Below are positions 18,501-62,341 of a DNA stretch of 64,000 nt, piece after piece. The position numbers and the translations under genes were made by a program. How positions within the stretch are numbered: position 1 is the first letter of the stretch; each line of letters starts with the position of its first letter. The notes under the pieces were generated by a model. The model was not told the origin of the DNA and did not search any database. It saw only the letters and a program-made list of their open reading frames with translations. This stretch comes from Methanocellales archaeon (lineage in GTDB: Archaea > Halobacteriota > UBA148), in assembly GCA_028715985.1 (NCBI GenBank), contig JAQUQR010000006.1, positions 1-64,000 of the forward strand, in the 5' to 3' direction.

Positions 18501-19442
18501 TTAAGATTTGACCACTCACAACCTGTAGCATATAAAAAACATTCGCTCTATGAAGGTTCCCGTATCCTAGTTCAACGATTAAGAACTAGAGCGACGTCAC
18601 TTTCCGCTCGTTGGATTATAGCTACATATACGGACGAAAGCTATTTATCTCTAAATACAGTGAGAATTCTACAGTCACCAACAGAAACTTCTGACTTCAA
18701 TTTGCGATATCTCCTTGCCTTACTCAACTCCCGACTACTAAATGAACTTTTCAGACATATATTTTCCACAATTGATGTATATGCTTTTCAACTCGCAGCC
18801 TTTCCAATCCGCCGAATCAACTTTACTACCCCTTCCGAAGAACGAATCACCCTTGTTGAATCCTTACAATCAAAATACAACGCCAACCAGTTCGATGAAA
18901 TTCTTAAGATAGTTGAAGAATACCTCCCAAAAGATGCCGAAGGCAAGTTCATAACCGAACAGGAAAAGTCAGACGTAGTTCATGACATCCTCGCTTTTCT
19001 CGCCGAACAAATGATCAAGATGGGCAAGGAAAAACAGAATCTTACCCAGAAATTCTGGACTGATCTTGAAGGTGTCGTTGAAGAAGAAACTTTCGCAAAG
19101 TTACAGAAAGGCAAGCAATTAAGTTCGCTATACAAAAAGAGTCTTGCAAAAACCTATGTGGAAGAGAATTCGCATACCACTTACGGTCTGGATGAGGCAC
19201 TTCAGTGGAGCAGTGATGCATTCAAAAACTTCGTTAAACTACTTGCTGGAAAAGTCTCCAATCTCAGCGACATACTGAGTGTGTACGAGAAGCACTCGGA
19301 TGAGGTGGGAGGCATCGCACAGAGAATAGAAGCTACCGATGAGCTGATAGATCAAATAGTGTATAAGTTGTATGGGCTTACGGAGGATGAGATAAAAATT
19401 GTTGAATCTTCCCTTTCCAAAGTATCACAGGTGGTGGTCTAA
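15510..19442 (+). CDS. Type IIG-like restriction endonuclease-methyltransferase, single large polypeptide
   Basis: This 1310-residue protein probably cuts and methylates DNA as one chain. The N-terminus has a PD-(D/E)XK-like nuclease core: RPDYAFF (PD at about 93) and AIAVGDAKRW (D-A-K at about 125-127). The middle has an N6-adenine methyltransferase with SAM motif DPAMGSGHFLVEA near residue 525 and catalytic NPPYAP near 783. The last 450 residues include a TaqI-C-like target-recognition region, and the end reads IDQIVYKLYGLTEDEI, common in this family. No separate specificity or modification gene is nearby. A PUA-like gene follows after 14 bases. Likely acquired defence DNA. Confidence 0.88.
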   Translation: MVQLSLSFMRNSKLFSNHYLSHLVQRNREWREDEASERAFNRIKEIYDERGEKALQRLDEGLLEDFFIKKILEEGLRHHPGFQAKVEPSAKRPDYAFFPDKASLSDALDNYGKEDFYAGAIAVGDAKRWNVSLDKKLKGARPLEDRIPSFQIDTYLKETSKKWGILTNGRYWRLYNRETSYKPDSYYEIDLLQLLETNDVKNFKYFYLFFRLEAFLPGPDGKNFLDRVYEESVSYAQELGESLKENVYKAMKILAEGFFDTPKNNLTKTEENIKLVHDNTLKLLYRLLFIFYAESRGLLDTSNKAYEYFSLDWIRRDVSEKIDKKELILPISTVYWDRLKGLFDLINVGSESRKIPKDMLYIPPYNGGLFDPERNPFLKEKKIGDSFISKAIDLLARSEVKNGGGKGFVDYSTLDIRHLGSIYEGLLEYKLKVAEEELVAVTVKGKETWIPKETARNKIVDEVKPGELYLATDKGERKATGSYYTPDYIVRYIVENTVGPLVKEKLSENGGNPIDKILSIKVLDPAMGSGHFLVEATDFLAKALMGALGESPSGENEEDIKWARREVIRHCIYGVDLNPMAVELAKLSLWLSTVAVDKPLTFLDHRLKCGNSLIGTNLIDLPRHPEATERKKKREEKAELDERQKKFKEEVHKPFVDKIVQQMDTLVEISDDTLENIKRKEGLFKKLIETKEYQQIKAIADVYTAVYFADGIEKVPEKRYYDLFWAMKGDETEWKQKTNYKWFRDAVKIAEEKRFFHWELEFPEVFFEAGKEKENPGFDAVVGNPPYAPALKIDVSFFKKQFICAIGEIDLYKLFVEAAVNKTRSEGSFGMILSHTFLAGKNFMELRKFLLNSSLIRELIEYRPGVFPEVGISVCILLLTKKPTLISPRSKEIKVRLSQADPGGVDRKVSITEVPQDIFWTFPTFEFNTRLESFWANMWLHMSAIAVPLGELMKISRGIELGSNYPGITDSLCSTNVERLISGKDIERYLITWTGRGLRFDHSQPVAYKKHSLYEGSRILVQRLRTRATSLSARWIIATYTDESYLSLNTVRILQSPTETSDFNLRYLLALLNSRLLNELFRHIFSTIDVYAFQLAAFPIRRINFTTPSEERITLVESLQSKYNANQFDEILKIVEEYLPKDAEGKFITEQEKSDVVHDILAFLAEQMIKMGKEKQNLTQKFWTDLEGVVEEETFAKLQKGKQLSSLYKKSLAKTYVEENSHTTYGLDEALQWSSDAFKNFVKLLAGKVSNLSDILSVYEKHSDEVGGIAQRIEATDELIDQIVYKLYGLTEDEIKIVESSLSKVSQVVV

Positions 19443-57059: not shown

Positions 57060-57071
57060 ATGGAGGTGCTT

Positions 57072-57449
57072 ATGTCATACGATTGGGGGCCACACTATAT
57101 TGTTCCTTCAAGGGGTTTGAAAATCTATTCTGGAAATGTTTTACTGCGAGAATATTTTGATGAGGACTTGCTACAAAAGGAGTTAAAATCTTTGGATATC
57201 CCTGGACCAGTCGTGAAGGTAACCAATCCCTGGTACTATCGCAAGAAGAACACGAATACTTGGATTAAGATTGGTGAGTCAGACGATAAGGAACAGAATT
57301 TCCCCACCAACTGGGATACAACCGATTTAGAAAACGGTCAATATGAGGTAATGGGACTAATGCACGTCTTTGCCAGAAAGGGTATTGATGATATAGTAGC
57401 AATTGCCGGTCAGAATATAGTGGAAGTTACTGTTGAAAATTTTAAATAA
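57072..57449 (+). CDS. Hypothetical protein (125 aa), beta-rich
   Basis: I do not recognise a family. GGAGGTG lies three bases before the ATG at 57072; an ATG at 57060 overlaps this site and is less likely. The product begins SYDWGPHYIVPSRGLKIYSG and looks mostly beta, with VVKVTNPWYYRKKNTNTW and a final VAIAGQNIVEVTVENFK strand pair. No signal peptide. The gene precedes the truncated paralogue fragment by about 100 bases; whether they were one gene cluster with the 27539-type protein is unclear. Confidence 0.5.
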   Translation: MSYDWGPHYIVPSRGLKIYSGNVLLREYFDEDLLQKELKSLDIPGPVVKVTNPWYYRKKNTNTWIKIGESDDKEQNFPTNWDTTDLENGQYEVMGLMHVFARKGIDDIVAIAGQNIVEVTVENFK

Positions 57450-57884: not shown

Positions 57885-58152
57885 ACTAACAAACATCAAT
57901 TTAAAGCCGCTAATGAAAGTAATACCATTCGAAAAAGTAATTTCATTTTAAATAAACAATCAACATCAAATAATGCCACTGCTTCTATGGTGTGGTGTTG
58001 GGATGGATTAGTTATCTAAGAGAAGCGTTATAGGGGTTGTACTGTAGACTTTCTAGTTTGTCATTTAAACGAGATTATATGTCCCTAGGACAATATCTTT
58101 CCACCACTGCATTTTAAACAGAACCGTCGAAACTCTCCTTAGCCAGGTTTGT
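57885..58152. other. AT-rich region before the CRISPR repeats
   Basis: No gene is supported. The region lies on the 5' side of repeats that end in ATTGAAA, where a CRISPR leader is expected, and it is AT-rich. No specific leader motif was recognised. Confidence 0.35.
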
Positions 58153-58454
58153 GAAAAAGTCTAATAAAATAAGGATTGAAACCCCATTCGCAATGGAAAC
58201 AACAAGGCATATCTTTAAGAAGTTGCAAAAAGTCTAATAAAACGAGGATTGAAATCAAATTCAGGAAACTCCAAAAGAGTTTAAACAAAAAGCTAAAATC
58301 AGACCATAGTGGGATTGAAATAACTGGGAGGATAACTATGTCAATAAAGGCCTTCTTGGCTAAAATCAGACCATAGTGGGATTGAAATGAAGCTGAAAGG
58401 ATATTAAATAAAAGATAGAACAAAGCTAAAATCAGACCATAGTGGGATTGAAAT
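58153..58454 (+). CRISPR. Short CRISPR array made from two repeat families
   Basis: Five repeats of about 30 bases are seen. Two type-B repeats at 58153-58182 and 58226-58255 share AAAAAGTCTAATAAAA and end AGGATTGAAA(C/T). Three identical type-A repeats at 58292-58321, 58359-58388 and 58425-58454 begin GCTAAAATCAGACC and end GTGGGATTGAAAT. Spacers are 43, 36, 37 and 36 bases. The B-to-A junction spacing is that of a normal spacer, so the array looks chimeric. Repeat ends are of the type seen with archaeal I-A/I-B/III systems. No cas gene is in this window. Confidence 0.88.
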
Positions 58455-58760
58455 GCCGTTGCCGATGTCAAGGTCAATCGGGTACGCCTTGCTGTCGGCC
58501 AGGACTCTCAGAGAGCCAATGGCCTTGACCGCCTCAATAGTGTCGAAGTGAGCGGAGAGGTTAAACTCCGTCGGTGTCAGCTTCTCGTAGTCGGGGAAAG
58601 TCCCTGGAACGGCTGCCCACTTATAGCGGATTAGCTCCGTATCAATGGTCAGTGCTGGTATGTGGGTGGTATTGTCAAAGCTATTAAGTTCAAGCCTGGG
58701 TTGACAAGGTGGCAACAAGGCGGTAGAATTTTGCAACCAATACAATGGCATAAAAATCAA
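58455..58760 (-). pseudogene. G/C-richer gene fragment cut off at the last CRISPR repeat
   Basis: The minus-strand frame here encodes a protein-like stretch (ALTIDTELIRYKWAAVPG; KLTPTEFNLSAHFDTIEAV; SLRVLADSKAYPIDLDIG) and then runs directly into repeat sequence at 58454. Composition is G/C-richer than the array. No family is recognised. It appears to be the remainder of a gene broken where the array ends, or a chance ORF in transferred DNA. Confidence 0.3.
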
Positions 58761-58807
58761 TGGTTAGGCATTTTGTAAAAAATGTAAACTCTGGCAAGGA
58801 GGCTAAA

Positions 58808-59392
58808 ATGAGGATATTTGATTGGCTATTCAAAAAGAGAAGTAGTGAAGAGCAGAAACTGGCGAAACTGAAAGCCCGCTCCCACAAGGAGGGTATATCG
58901 TCGAAAGAGAGGGATACCATATTCCAGCAGTTGGCGGACCTGTACTTGAACGGCAAACGGACACTCATTTGCGCGGAGGCCTTGCAGGAGCTGGTTTTGC
59001 AATTGGAGCGTCTGATACAGTTGCCCGAAGTTAGCGGTGTCTCCGCTACCGTGATGAACGCCCTTGTCAAAGCACTTGCAGACACGACTCCAAACAATAA
59101 AATCGGATCAAGCCTGGCTGATTGGCTGGCCGAGGAACTGGGATTCGCCGCTCGCCATGGCAAACGTCCGTTCCTTGATACGCTTGCCTTTTCGAAAGGA
59201 TCTGATGCACTTATAGCCACGCTGTCGGAGCGTCTGCGCGATCGCTCCAGCCGAAAGCGTTCCTACGTTATGATCTTTCTGTGTGAGCTTCGCGACGAAC
59301 GCTGTCGGTCCATATTGACAGAGCTGGCGCAGGATGAGGATGATCTGGTTGCTGGCAACGCCAAACTGGGCCTCTCTAAACTTCCATCATAG
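58808..59392 (+). CDS. Hypothetical helical-repeat (HEAT-like) protein beside CRISPR repeats
   Basis: A 194-residue protein starting MRIFDWLFKKRSSEEQKLAKL. AAGGAGG, 5 bases before the ATG at 58808, decides the start; the frame opens at 58760. Regular helices with Leu/Ala spacing (ICAEALQELVLQLERLIQL; SILTELAQDEDDLVAGNAKLGLSKL) suggest HEAT-like repeats. The gene is visibly G/C-richer than its surroundings and lies between the array and a solitary type-B repeat at 59552. It is probably foreign. No known Cas or anti-CRISPR family was recognised. Confidence 0.55.
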   Translation: MRIFDWLFKKRSSEEQKLAKLKARSHKEGISSKERDTIFQQLADLYLNGKRTLICAEALQELVLQLERLIQLPEVSGVSATVMNALVKALADTTPNNKIGSSLADWLAEELGFAARHGKRPFLDTLAFSKGSDALIATLSERLRDRSSRKRSYVMIFLCELRDERCRSILTELAQDEDDLVAGNAKLGLSKLPS

Positions 59393-59551
59393 AGGGATCA
59401 AGACTCATTATCCCTCTCAAGGCTCATTCAAAGCCAGCATAATAAGGGGCAGAGATTTATCTTTCAGTTAAGGCGATATTTTGCCTAACCACTCGTTCCA
59501 AGCGACACCAAGGGGCGCTCTTCCCTGAGCCTTGGCTTGCTTCCAATTGCA
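59393..59551. other. Intergenic segment between the HEAT-like gene and the solitary repeat
   Basis: No gene is visible. Two related ACTCATTATCCCTCTCAAGGCTCATT-type stretches hint at short internal repetition (CTCATT at 59404 and 59422). Nothing else was recognised. Confidence 0.3.
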
Positions 59552-59581
59552 AAAAAAGCCTAATAAAACAAGGATTGAAAC
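59552..59581 (+). CRISPR. Solitary type-B CRISPR repeat
   Basis: This 30-base sequence has the core CCTAATAAAACAAGGATTGAAAC and matches the type-B repeats at 58153 and 58226 with few changes (AGCC for AGTC), in the same orientation. It stands 1.1 kb from the array, after the HEAT-like gene, so the intervening DNA appears to split a former type-B array. Confidence 0.75.
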
Positions 59582-59610: not shown

Positions 59611-61131
59611 TTACCCAACAACCTCTCCTAAAATCATCCCTTCAACTCTTATTGGCTGGAGTTTGCTGGCGAGTGTCTTTGCATCATCGAGCTTTCTCTT
59701 GTTCTCAGCGTAGATTGTGAGTAAAGCCTCCCCTTTTTCGGCCCCTTCACCCTTTTTGAATCCTAACACGATCCCTGCCCCTTTATCTTTTGGAGAGCCT
59801 GCTGACCTTGCAATCTTGACGATCGCTCTGTTGTTTATTGCCTCAATATAGCCATCCTTTGGCGAGGGCAATTCATAAGTGTACTTTCCAGGCATGATAT
59901 CCTCGGCCTTTATATCTGGATCTCCACCCTGGGCCTCGATAATCTCCTTGAACTTCTTCAAAGCCTTCCCTGACTCCAAAGTTTTCTTCGCAAGCTCTAG
60001 TCCTCTATCTGGGCGTGCCATTCCTCCAAGCTCAAGAAGTATCCCTGCGAGACTCAATGCCTTCTCAATGAGACTGTTCGGCTCTTTCGCTCCTTCAAGG
60101 ACTGACAGAACCTCCCGAATTTCCAAGGCTGGGCCGACTGCCCTTCCGACAGGTTGCCCTCCATAGGTGATAGCACACCTTGTTTTCACACCTATACGTT
60201 CCCCGAGTATTATGAAATCTCTAGCTAGTGACTTTGCCTCCTCGCTTGTTGTGATCTTTGCCCCCTCTCCCATGGGGATATCTATGACACAGTACTCTGC
60301 CCCAACGGCCTTTTTCTTTGCCATAACAGATGCTAAAACCTGCCCATGGGGATCAAGGGATAGTGGGTATTCGACCCTAATTATGGCATCATCTACCGGT
60401 GCAAGGTTCATTCCACCCCCCCACACCAACGCTCCACCAACTTTTTGTGCAATCCTTTTAATTGATTGCCCACCATGCTCCACATTACACACCACTTCCA
60501 TAATGTCAGCGGTGCCGGCAGCAGAACTTATTGCCCTCGATGATGTTTTCGGGATTGTGAGCCCATTAGCAGCGACAATTGAAACCGTGATTGGCGCATA
60601 CTTGTTTCCAGGTACGCCTCCTATGCTATGAACATCGAGAATCGGAGAGCTTTCCCATTCCAGTGTTTCGCCTGTTCTGACCATGGCCGTTGTAAGCCAG
60701 GTAATCTCATCCATGCTCATTCCATTTATCTGAACTGCTGTAGTGTAGGCGGCAAGCTCAATATCTGAAAGTTTGCCCAACGCAATATCCTCAACGATTG
60801 TATTGATCTCCTCTTGGCTCCAAGCATTGCCGTAGATCTTTTTCCTGACAAAGTCTATGGAGGCCGGGCGAGATGTGGGAACGATATGAACTTTTTCCCC
60901 CTCCTTCAAATCCCTCCACAATTCGATAAAAGCTCCCGCCTCTCCTTTGCTAACCAATGTATCAGTAATGTTAACCACTGCTGACTGGCTTTCCCCTTTA
61001 CCATGGACTACCTTTACCCTATCTTGAGTACGCAATCCTAACTCCTCTGCATCCTCTTTGTTTAATAGCACCTCATGCGCTCCCTTGAGAATGTCTATCC
61101 TTTTCACCTTGTAAGGGGCTTTATTTTCCAT
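59611..61131 (-). CDS. deoA: AMP phosphorylase
   Basis: Splits AMP (and CMP/UMP) with phosphate to ribose 1,5-bisphosphate plus base, the first step of the archaeal AMP pathway. The 506-residue protein has an N-terminal domain absent from bacterial thymidine phosphorylases, and the phosphorylase core with SIGGVPGNKYAPITV, TSSRAISSAAGTADIMEV and a C-terminal PSPKDGYIEAINN domain. I start at ATG 61131, which overlaps the RuBisCO stop by 11 bases. DeoA-type thymidine phosphorylase is the alternative name, but the neighbours establish the AMP-pathway role. Confidence 0.92.
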   Translation of the reverse strand: MENKAPYKVKRIDILKGAHEVLLNKEDAEELGLRTQDRVKVVHGKGESQSAVVNITDTLVSKGEAGAFIELWRDLKEGEKVHIVPTSRPASIDFVRKKIYGNAWSQEEINTIVEDIALGKLSDIELAAYTTAVQINGMSMDEITWLTTAMVRTGETLEWESSPILDVHSIGGVPGNKYAPITVSIVAANGLTIPKTSSRAISSAAGTADIMEVVCNVEHGGQSIKRIAQKVGGALVWGGGMNLAPVDDAIIRVEYPLSLDPHGQVLASVMAKKKAVGAEYCVIDIPMGEGAKITTSEEAKSLARDFIILGERIGVKTRCAITYGGQPVGRAVGPALEIREVLSVLEGAKEPNSLIEKALSLAGILLELGGMARPDRGLELAKKTLESGKALKKFKEIIEAQGGDPDIKAEDIMPGKYTYELPSPKDGYIEAINNRAIVKIARSAGSPKDKGAGIVLGFKKGEGAEKGEALLTIYAENKRKLDDAKTLASKLQPIRVEGMILGEVVG

Positions 61132-62341
61132 AAAGCTCACTCCACTCAATTGTTCTTCCCCACTTCTCAAGTGCCCTCATAAGCTCTGGATGCTCTAATG
61201 CATACTTCTCCAATGGAATATTTTTCCTTGCTGCATCAACCGCTTGGCGCATTGCCTTAGCACCTGCGATCGTCCCATCTGGATGACCATGGATGCCTCC
61301 ACCAGCCTGTAAAACTACATCGTTTCCAAAAGCGTTAATCTCATAGGGCACTAAGCCTGGGTGAAGGCCACCCGATGCAACGGGAAAGACATTCTTGAAA
61401 CCATGCCAGTCGCTCTTTAGGAAGTCATTGATCTCCTTTACGCCTTCAATGTCCCTCTCCATTTTGCCTGTGGCTGTTCCTGTATGCAGCTGGTCCCCAC
61501 CGCACAGCCTAACAAGAACCGCCAAGGGGAGCATCGCTATGCCGTGTTTTTTATTCCTCGTAATTGCACCATGCATCGTTCTGTGCACATGTATCGGGAG
61601 GTTTACAGACTTATCCTCTCTCAAGGTCTTGAGTGCAGAGAAACCAGCGGTCAGAACATCAATCATAAGCATGTTCGCTCCGTGTTCCATTGCTAGGTCT
61701 GCACGCTCAAGTATCTCTTCTGCTCCAACGGTAATGTTCACTGCGTAAAGAACCGTCCTATCACTTTCCTCCTTTATCTTGTCGAGCCTTTCCATGACAT
61801 TCTCCAATCTTTCCACCATGGGGCAGAATGCCTGATCGGTCAGGGTCTCATCATCCTTTATTAGGTCACATCCCCCTATGCCGGCATTATAAGCGACTTC
61901 TGCAGTTTCTTTAGGGCTGAGACCTACCTTGGGCTTGATGATGGTTCCTACGTGCGCTCTCCCCTCACTCACCGTTCCAACCTTTTTCCGTACCCCCTCT
62001 ATACCAAAGCGGGGGCCTTTAAATTCCCTTACAAAGCTTTTTGGAAGCTTGATGTCGAGGAGTCTGACATTTTTGAGTGCCCCCAAACCAAAGAGGTTGC
62101 CAGCAACGGTGGCAAGGAACTGGGGTATGTTATAGACCTCGAACAAATCAATTGGAAATTCGATCTTCACCTTCGAGCCGTCAATCTCAAGGACCCTCGC
62201 ACCTAATCGTTCATCTACCTCTTTTTCCTTGGTTGAGATGTCTGTCCATGTGCCAGTTGACTGCTCTGCTGCAATAGCCCTTGCAGCTTTCTCTATTGGC
62301 AGAGAGCTCTCGACATAATAGGTGCATTCTACAAACTCCAT
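61121..62341 (-). CDS. rbcL: RuBisCO, form III large subunit
   Basis: Carboxylates ribulose 1,5-bisphosphate from nucleotide ribose to give two 3-phosphoglycerate. The 406-residue protein keeps the key residues: KPK at about 136-138, the carbamylated Lys in GGCDLIKDDE (about 162) with metal ligands D and E, HVHRTMHG (about 251-258), loop 6 Lys in TATGKMERD (about 293) and SGGLHPG. It is therefore catalytically competent and not a RuBisCO-like form IV. It is slightly shorter than many form III enzymes. It overlaps both neighbouring genes. Confidence 0.94.
   Translation of the reverse strand: MEFVECTYYVESSLPIEKAARAIAAEQSTGTWTDISTKEKEVDERLGARVLEIDGSKVKIEFPIDLFEVYNIPQFLATVAGNLFGLGALKNVRLLDIKLPKSFVREFKGPRFGIEGVRKKVGTVSEGRAHVGTIIKPKVGLSPKETAEVAYNAGIGGCDLIKDDETLTDQAFCPMVERLENVMERLDKIKEESDRTVLYAVNITVGAEEILERADLAMEHGANMLMIDVLTAGFSALKTLREDKSVNLPIHVHRTMHGAITRNKKHGIAMLPLAVLVRLCGGDQLHTGTATGKMERDIEGVKEINDFLKSDWHGFKNVFPVASGGLHPGLVPYEINAFGNDVVLQAGGGIHGHPDGTIAGAKAMRQAVDAARKNIPLEKYALEHPELMRALEKWGRTIEWSELYGK

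Follow-up and report, generated by a model that had tools for sequence, protein, structure and literature searches.

Background

CRISPR arrays normally carry one repeat family. The closest precedent for the locus described here is locus F of Sulfolobus solfataricus, a leaderless CRISPR locus in which an 899-bp fragment of a pNOB8-like plasmid lies between two repeats (PMC4390879). Recombination between repeats has been inferred in Sulfolobus, including cases in which the repeats belong to separate CRISPR loci of the same cell, and in the same archaeal review structural irregularities and transposition into arrays are considered very rare (PMC4390879). Recombination between a CRISPR spacer and its phage target is known in bacteria (Watson 2018 and Varble 2019, as cited in PMC8616872), and orphan CRISPR arrays and solitary repeat units have been reviewed (PMC8616872).

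In this study, we describe a locus in a stretch of 64,000 nucleotides (the window) that comes from contig C6 of a Methanocellales genome (G000; 1.5 Mb, 96% complete). The locus is real, a chimeric CRISPR relic that lacks a leader and holds captured DNA; it belongs to a pattern that spans the genus and is a variation on known phenomena. Like locus F, it is leaderless and apparently inactive and holds about 1 kb of mobile-element-like DNA between two repeats; however, locus F is a long array for which no mixture of families has been described, whereas our locus is a six-repeat remnant with two families in register, and its insert is flanked by repeats of different families. As in recombination between spacer and phage target, the mobile-element homology starts at a spacer position and exceeds the length of a spacer, but no spacer is duplicated at the far end, the locus is an archaeal I-B relic, and the event is deduced rather than observed. 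Like orphan arrays and solitary units, the repeats belong to host families and stand singly or in mini-arrays away from cas genes and leaders; unlike those, they mark the edges of chromosomal segments that have been rearranged, and members of different families stand in tandem.

Repeats, register and cas systems

Five repeats in the order B-B-A-A-A stand in register at 58150-58454, and a further B follows at 59547-59581, all on the plus strand (Table 1). The three A repeats are exact copies of GCTAAAATCAGACCATAGTGGGATTGAAAT (starts 58292, 58359 and 58425, +) with spacers of 36-37 nt, and the B copies (TTGCAAAAAGTCTAATAAAACAAGGATTGAAAC; core starts 58154, 58227 and 59553, +) have diverged among themselves. 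Start-to-start spacing is 73 from B1 to the second B, about 65 from there to A1, then 67 and 66, so that B runs into A at spacer distance. The earlier note had described exactly this succession of two B and three A repeats, with a lone B in the same orientation about 1.1 kb later, and both statements are confirmed. Reversed control patterns gave 0 matches in the 1.5-Mb genome and shuffled 20-kb stretches gave 0.0 repeat hits, which excludes chance for the repeats. They were located by pattern and BLAST searches, in which more diverged solitary copies may be missed; an Rfam search gave no match.

Table 1. Position of the repeats, spacers and genes at the locus (window coordinates)
Feature	Position	Strand	Remark
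Left-flank gene X, 129 aa, no family	57060-57449	+	Flank aligns to G003:C26, 88% over 481 nt and 77% over 309 nt
B1 repeat	58150-58182	+	End of left flank; AATAAGG variant, as in the solitary B of G003:C26 and G002:C37
Spacer, B1 to second B	58183-58222	+	No convincing match in loci searched
Second B repeat	58223-58255	+	3' handle ATTGAAAT, as in A
B-to-A junction spacer, 36 nt	58256-58291	+	20-nt core without exact IMG/VR match
A1 repeat	58292-58321	+	Identical to 43 repeats of the I-B array, contig C7
A2 repeat	58359-58388	+	
A3 repeat	58425-58454	+	
dnaN (bacterial-type DNA sliding clamp) fragment, both gene ends missing	58455-58700	-	Starts at the base after A3
Sigma-70-like promoter TTGACA-17-TAGAAT before HEAT-like gene	58701-58729	+	Match to bacterial consensus only
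HEAT-like gene, 194 aa, open frame	58808-59392	+	No close relative found
B3 repeat	59547-59581	+	About 30 nt past AMP phosphorylase stop codon; B-type relic here common to congeners
AMP phosphorylase (right flank), then RuBisCO III and ribose-1,5-bisphosphate isomerase genes	59611-61170	-	

For comparison we used Methanocellales genomes that are all MAGs, one per species, among them G003 (Methanocellales archaeon STD1_76, JAQURP01) and G002 (Methanocellaceae archaeon UBA148, DAHG01). The repeats of family A belong to a complete type I-B system, encoded on contig C7 of the window's genome, with cas6, cas8b, cas7, cas5, cas3, cas4, cas1, cas2 and 43 identical repeats; the sole intact cas1 found in the genome lies there. 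Family B, which has the 3' end GGATTGAAA in common with A, occurs in the same genome as scattered copies only, and no long B array was detected by pattern and BLAST searches. Its sister family B2 forms 85+3 repeats in G002 beside cas genes of its own, which by eye we take to be cas8/7/5/3/6/1/4-like, and a third related repeat form, C, fills arrays in G004. Long arrays are each pure, of A in the window's genome and in G002 and G004 and of B2 in G002, thus A and B are separate families and not variants within one long array. The recombination of two arrays proposed in the earlier note is supported by this purity, and by the recurrence of mixed arrays in the assembly of another species and on a second contig of the window's genome.

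Two further features of C7 may be recorded. The spacers after the repeats at positions 18975 and 18569 of the main I-B array (L010/L016) have the same first 24 nt (TTCAATTGAGCAAACCCCTTATCT) and then differ, and a Fic-domain gene (SoFic/PDC-S04 match) and a PIN-like gene separate cas3 from cas4 in the cas operon (L016:6423-7922). On contig C2 of the same genome, a short Cas1 match (L015; C2:6414-6626; 30.4 bits, above the Pfam cut-off) contains one internal stop and abuts intact unrelated genes; the match may stem from a small remnant of cas1 or be fortuitous.

The window locus has the identical repeats and regular spacers of a type I-B array. However, the 250-bp leader of the C7 array, conserved in G002 (91%) and G004 (84%), has no match here, on contig C1 or at G003:C8, and no cas genes adjoin the locus, its neighbours being an ammonium-transporter-like gene, the flank genes and AMP phosphorylase. 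An array of host-family repeats that lacks both leader and cas genes counts as an orphan or relic, and the locus is thus a relic. It seems very improbable that it is instead a functional mini-array, such as a CreTA-kind crRNA-like regulator or toxin partner working through the genome's I-B Cas6/Cascade. While three exact A repeats are present, whose transcripts Cas6b could in principle process, and the second B carries the same 8-nt handle as A, neither leader nor adjoining cas genes accompany them, the B relic by AMP phosphorylase decays in G002 and G003 (GATTGAACC and GATTAAAAC), and the spacers have no convincing match in the loci searched. A degenerate repeat-spacer-repeat beside a toxin and a cas operon, as in CreTA, was not found at the locus, and the neighbouring proteins have no toxin-family match. 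The relic would thus seem to play no part in immunity at present, except that it may be passively transcribed and its RNA processed by Cas6.

Matching of the spacers to viruses, which the earlier note had envisaged, was unproductive. Three window spacer-core patterns had no exact match in IMG/VR, the main A array gave nothing against two viral records, and a similarity search of 58150-58730 against phages and plasmids returned marginal matches only, one of which was repeat-like and lay in a plasmid of Methanothermobacter tenebrarum. A match of 19/21 nt between the A1-A2 spacer and the viral contig L042 was dismissed because it does not exceed the background given by other spacers.

The same site in related genomes

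The orthologous site in G003 (C26) consists of flank X, a single B and the AMP phosphorylase gene, thus the window carries about 1.4 kb of extra DNA between two B copies. In G002 (C37), one decayed B occupies the same position relative to AMP phosphorylase, with different DNA further left. The presence of this B relic in relatives indicates that the right-hand relic predates the present structure of the window. Judged from these alignments, the ancestral site looks like a solitary B rather than a B array, and the insertion into a former type-B array that the earlier note had suggested is not supported; the B copies on either side of the extra segment would be better read as the ends of that segment. 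The functions of AMP phosphorylase, RuBisCO III and ribose-1,5-bisphosphate isomerase are those we assume from the conserved gene set.

Homology of the X flank to G003:C26 is weaker near B1 (77%). The 3' flank of AMP phosphorylase agrees at 27/30 positions with G001 and G003:C8 and at 20-21 with G003:C26 and G002, a similarity that may reflect retained ancestry rather than recombination. In none of the relatives examined did we find this A-A-A segment in exact form, the spacers belonging to it, the DnaN fragment or the HEAT-like gene, and no donor locus was found.

DNA between A3 and B3

The DnaN fragment of about 245 bp has 57-66% amino-acid identity to DnaN on three IMG/VR contigs (L042, L043 and L058) and matches the profiles TIGR00663 dnaN (E 6e-4) and phrog_947 (E 2.5e-4); a related viral-contig protein carries Pfam beta-clamp domains, and the only relatives found lie on viral contigs. 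The putative foreign origin of the clamp fragment is supported by these sequence relationships, as the earlier note had suspected of the intervening DNA at large, and for the remaining insert a foreign origin is likely. The promoter-like site agrees with the consensus at 11/12 positions, and 4 such sites occur in the region against 0.9 expected. The HEAT-like gene of the earlier note is a real open frame, with a Pfam HEAT_2 match of 21.5 bits that lies under the curated cut-off of 27.7; a pattern search found no relatives of it in IMG/VR, phages, plasmids or GTDB contigs, and weak 29% matches occur in only 2/295 genomes of the phylum. Base composition was the sign of foreign origin first put forward. 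The DNA between A3 and B3 (about 40-57% GC) is indeed richer in G and C than the adjacent array and intergenic DNA (33-38%), but host genes on both sides reach 44-55%, thus the difference is one between coding and non-coding DNA, and GC was rejected as proof of foreign origin.

The mobile-element homology that begins at the edge of A3 and outruns a spacer is what recombination between spacer and protospacer is expected to leave. According to this explanation, the DNA after A3 began as an I-B spacer against a viral dnaN, and recombination with the virus or plasmid brought in contiguous DNA and genes, most of which were later lost. Such recombination has the bacterial precedent cited above, and the congeneric locus G003:C8 offers a possible parallel: a nitroreductase insert lies between the two copies of a 24-nt direct repeat, which agree at 23/24 positions (at most 12 in shuffles); the left copy starts a few nt after a B, and the right copy ends a few nt before a family-B2 repeat. 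A single crossover at a spacer would leave such a duplication, but two spacers against homologous targets could as well. At the B3 end of the window the expected far-end duplication was not found (longest match to the spacer 8 nt), the candidate spacer has no exact 21-nt match in IMG/VR, and the DnaN relatives look bacterial-viral and do not point to a known virus of this archaeon. On balance, we regard spacer-protospacer recombination as a possible but somewhat unlikely source of the insert.

Mixed arrays elsewhere in the genus and probable history of the locus

In G004 trpA is joined directly to the aro genes, and in the window's genus the junction of trpA and aro is an island with B beside trpA. 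On contig C1 of the window's genome the order is trpA-B-A, followed by a B remnant ahead of a conserved gene and aro. G003:C8 has trpA, A-A-A-B-B, the nitroreductase gene, the family-B2 repeat, a scar of the AMP-pathway operon, more genes, B-B' and aro; G001 has trpA, B-B, an intact AMP-phosphorylase/RuBisCO/isomerase operon, further genes and B-B'. G002:C24 carries eight repeats, of the types A, B and B2 and in one orientation, with genes between them including a Cas6-like one. The repeats share one orientation within each locus (7/7 on C6, 8/8 at G003:C8 and 8/8 at G002:C24, counts that are non-independent because the loci share ancestry), which fits arrays broken by insertions better than independently scattered elements.

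The scar in G003:C8 (L031:2326-2668) is a deletion that has brought the AMP phosphorylase 3' end up against the end region of the gene for ribose-1,5-bisphosphate isomerase; together with the intact operon on another contig it indicates that the RuBisCO III operon has changed place. The Cas6-like gene of G002:C24 (L035:3803-4699) has no other cas genes near it; it stands next to solitary A repeats and to HEPN/MNT-like genes, and HEPN/MNT-like genes related to these occur downstream of trpA in G000:C1.

The finding of mixed A/B arrays in the independent assembly of another species (JAQURP01), and on a contig of the window's genome other than C6, also bears on whether the locus is an artefact, and favours real recombination over a chimera of assembly or binning. 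An assembler might have passed from a spacer into the genome of a virus in the same sample, or linked arrays by way of short identical repeats. This is a MAG-like draft genome, and misassembly is typical at repeats some 30 nt long and where spacer and protospacer are identical; the DnaN piece and the HEAT-like gene, moreover, occur in no relative. Against this, both outer flanks fit the orthologous locus, and dnaN is truncated on its far side as well, which would not result from running into an intact viral genome. We therefore hold a chimera to be improbable.

It is probable, in our judgement, that the locus is a leaderless CRISPR-array relic that was assembled by recombination at short repeats and then carried captured foreign DNA. 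We infer an order of events that would start from a solitary B between flank X and the AMP phosphorylase gene. The mixture of A and B probably formed earlier, putatively by crossing over within the shared end GGATTGAAA; a crossover there keeps the register of repeats and spacers, so that B would pass into A at spacer distance. The unit B-spacer-A-spacer-A-spacer-A and the foreign genes would have been joined at the solitary site by recombination between B repeats, with B1 and B3 as the ends. The trpA-aroF island is a candidate donor, and similar A/B mixtures lie in that island in this genome and in a congener.

The same kind of patchwork in relatives suggests that old CRISPR repeats are sites of rearrangement and gene addition. 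Two to three families share one register at several loci and in several species of one genus, genes are lodged between the repeats, and an AMP-pathway operon, bounded by B repeats, has moved to a different place, thus these loci lend themselves naturally to the question of whether rearrangement and gene capture are driven by CRISPR repeats and spacers. A far-reaching proposal would be that dispersed repeats of several families serve the whole genus as recurring sites of recombination and capture, where foreign DNA enters through homology between spacer and target and chromosomal modules, the AMP-phosphorylase/RuBisCO III operon among them, move from place to place between B repeats, in effect a disused immune memory turned into a platform for gene acquisition; in this full form we think it unlikely.

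Repeats in the same orientation 1.8-1.9 kb apart also occur on G004:C54 (L039:3708 and 5554) and G002:C74 (L047:1447, 1520 and 3400), and these copies are possibly further gene-interrupted mini-arrays.
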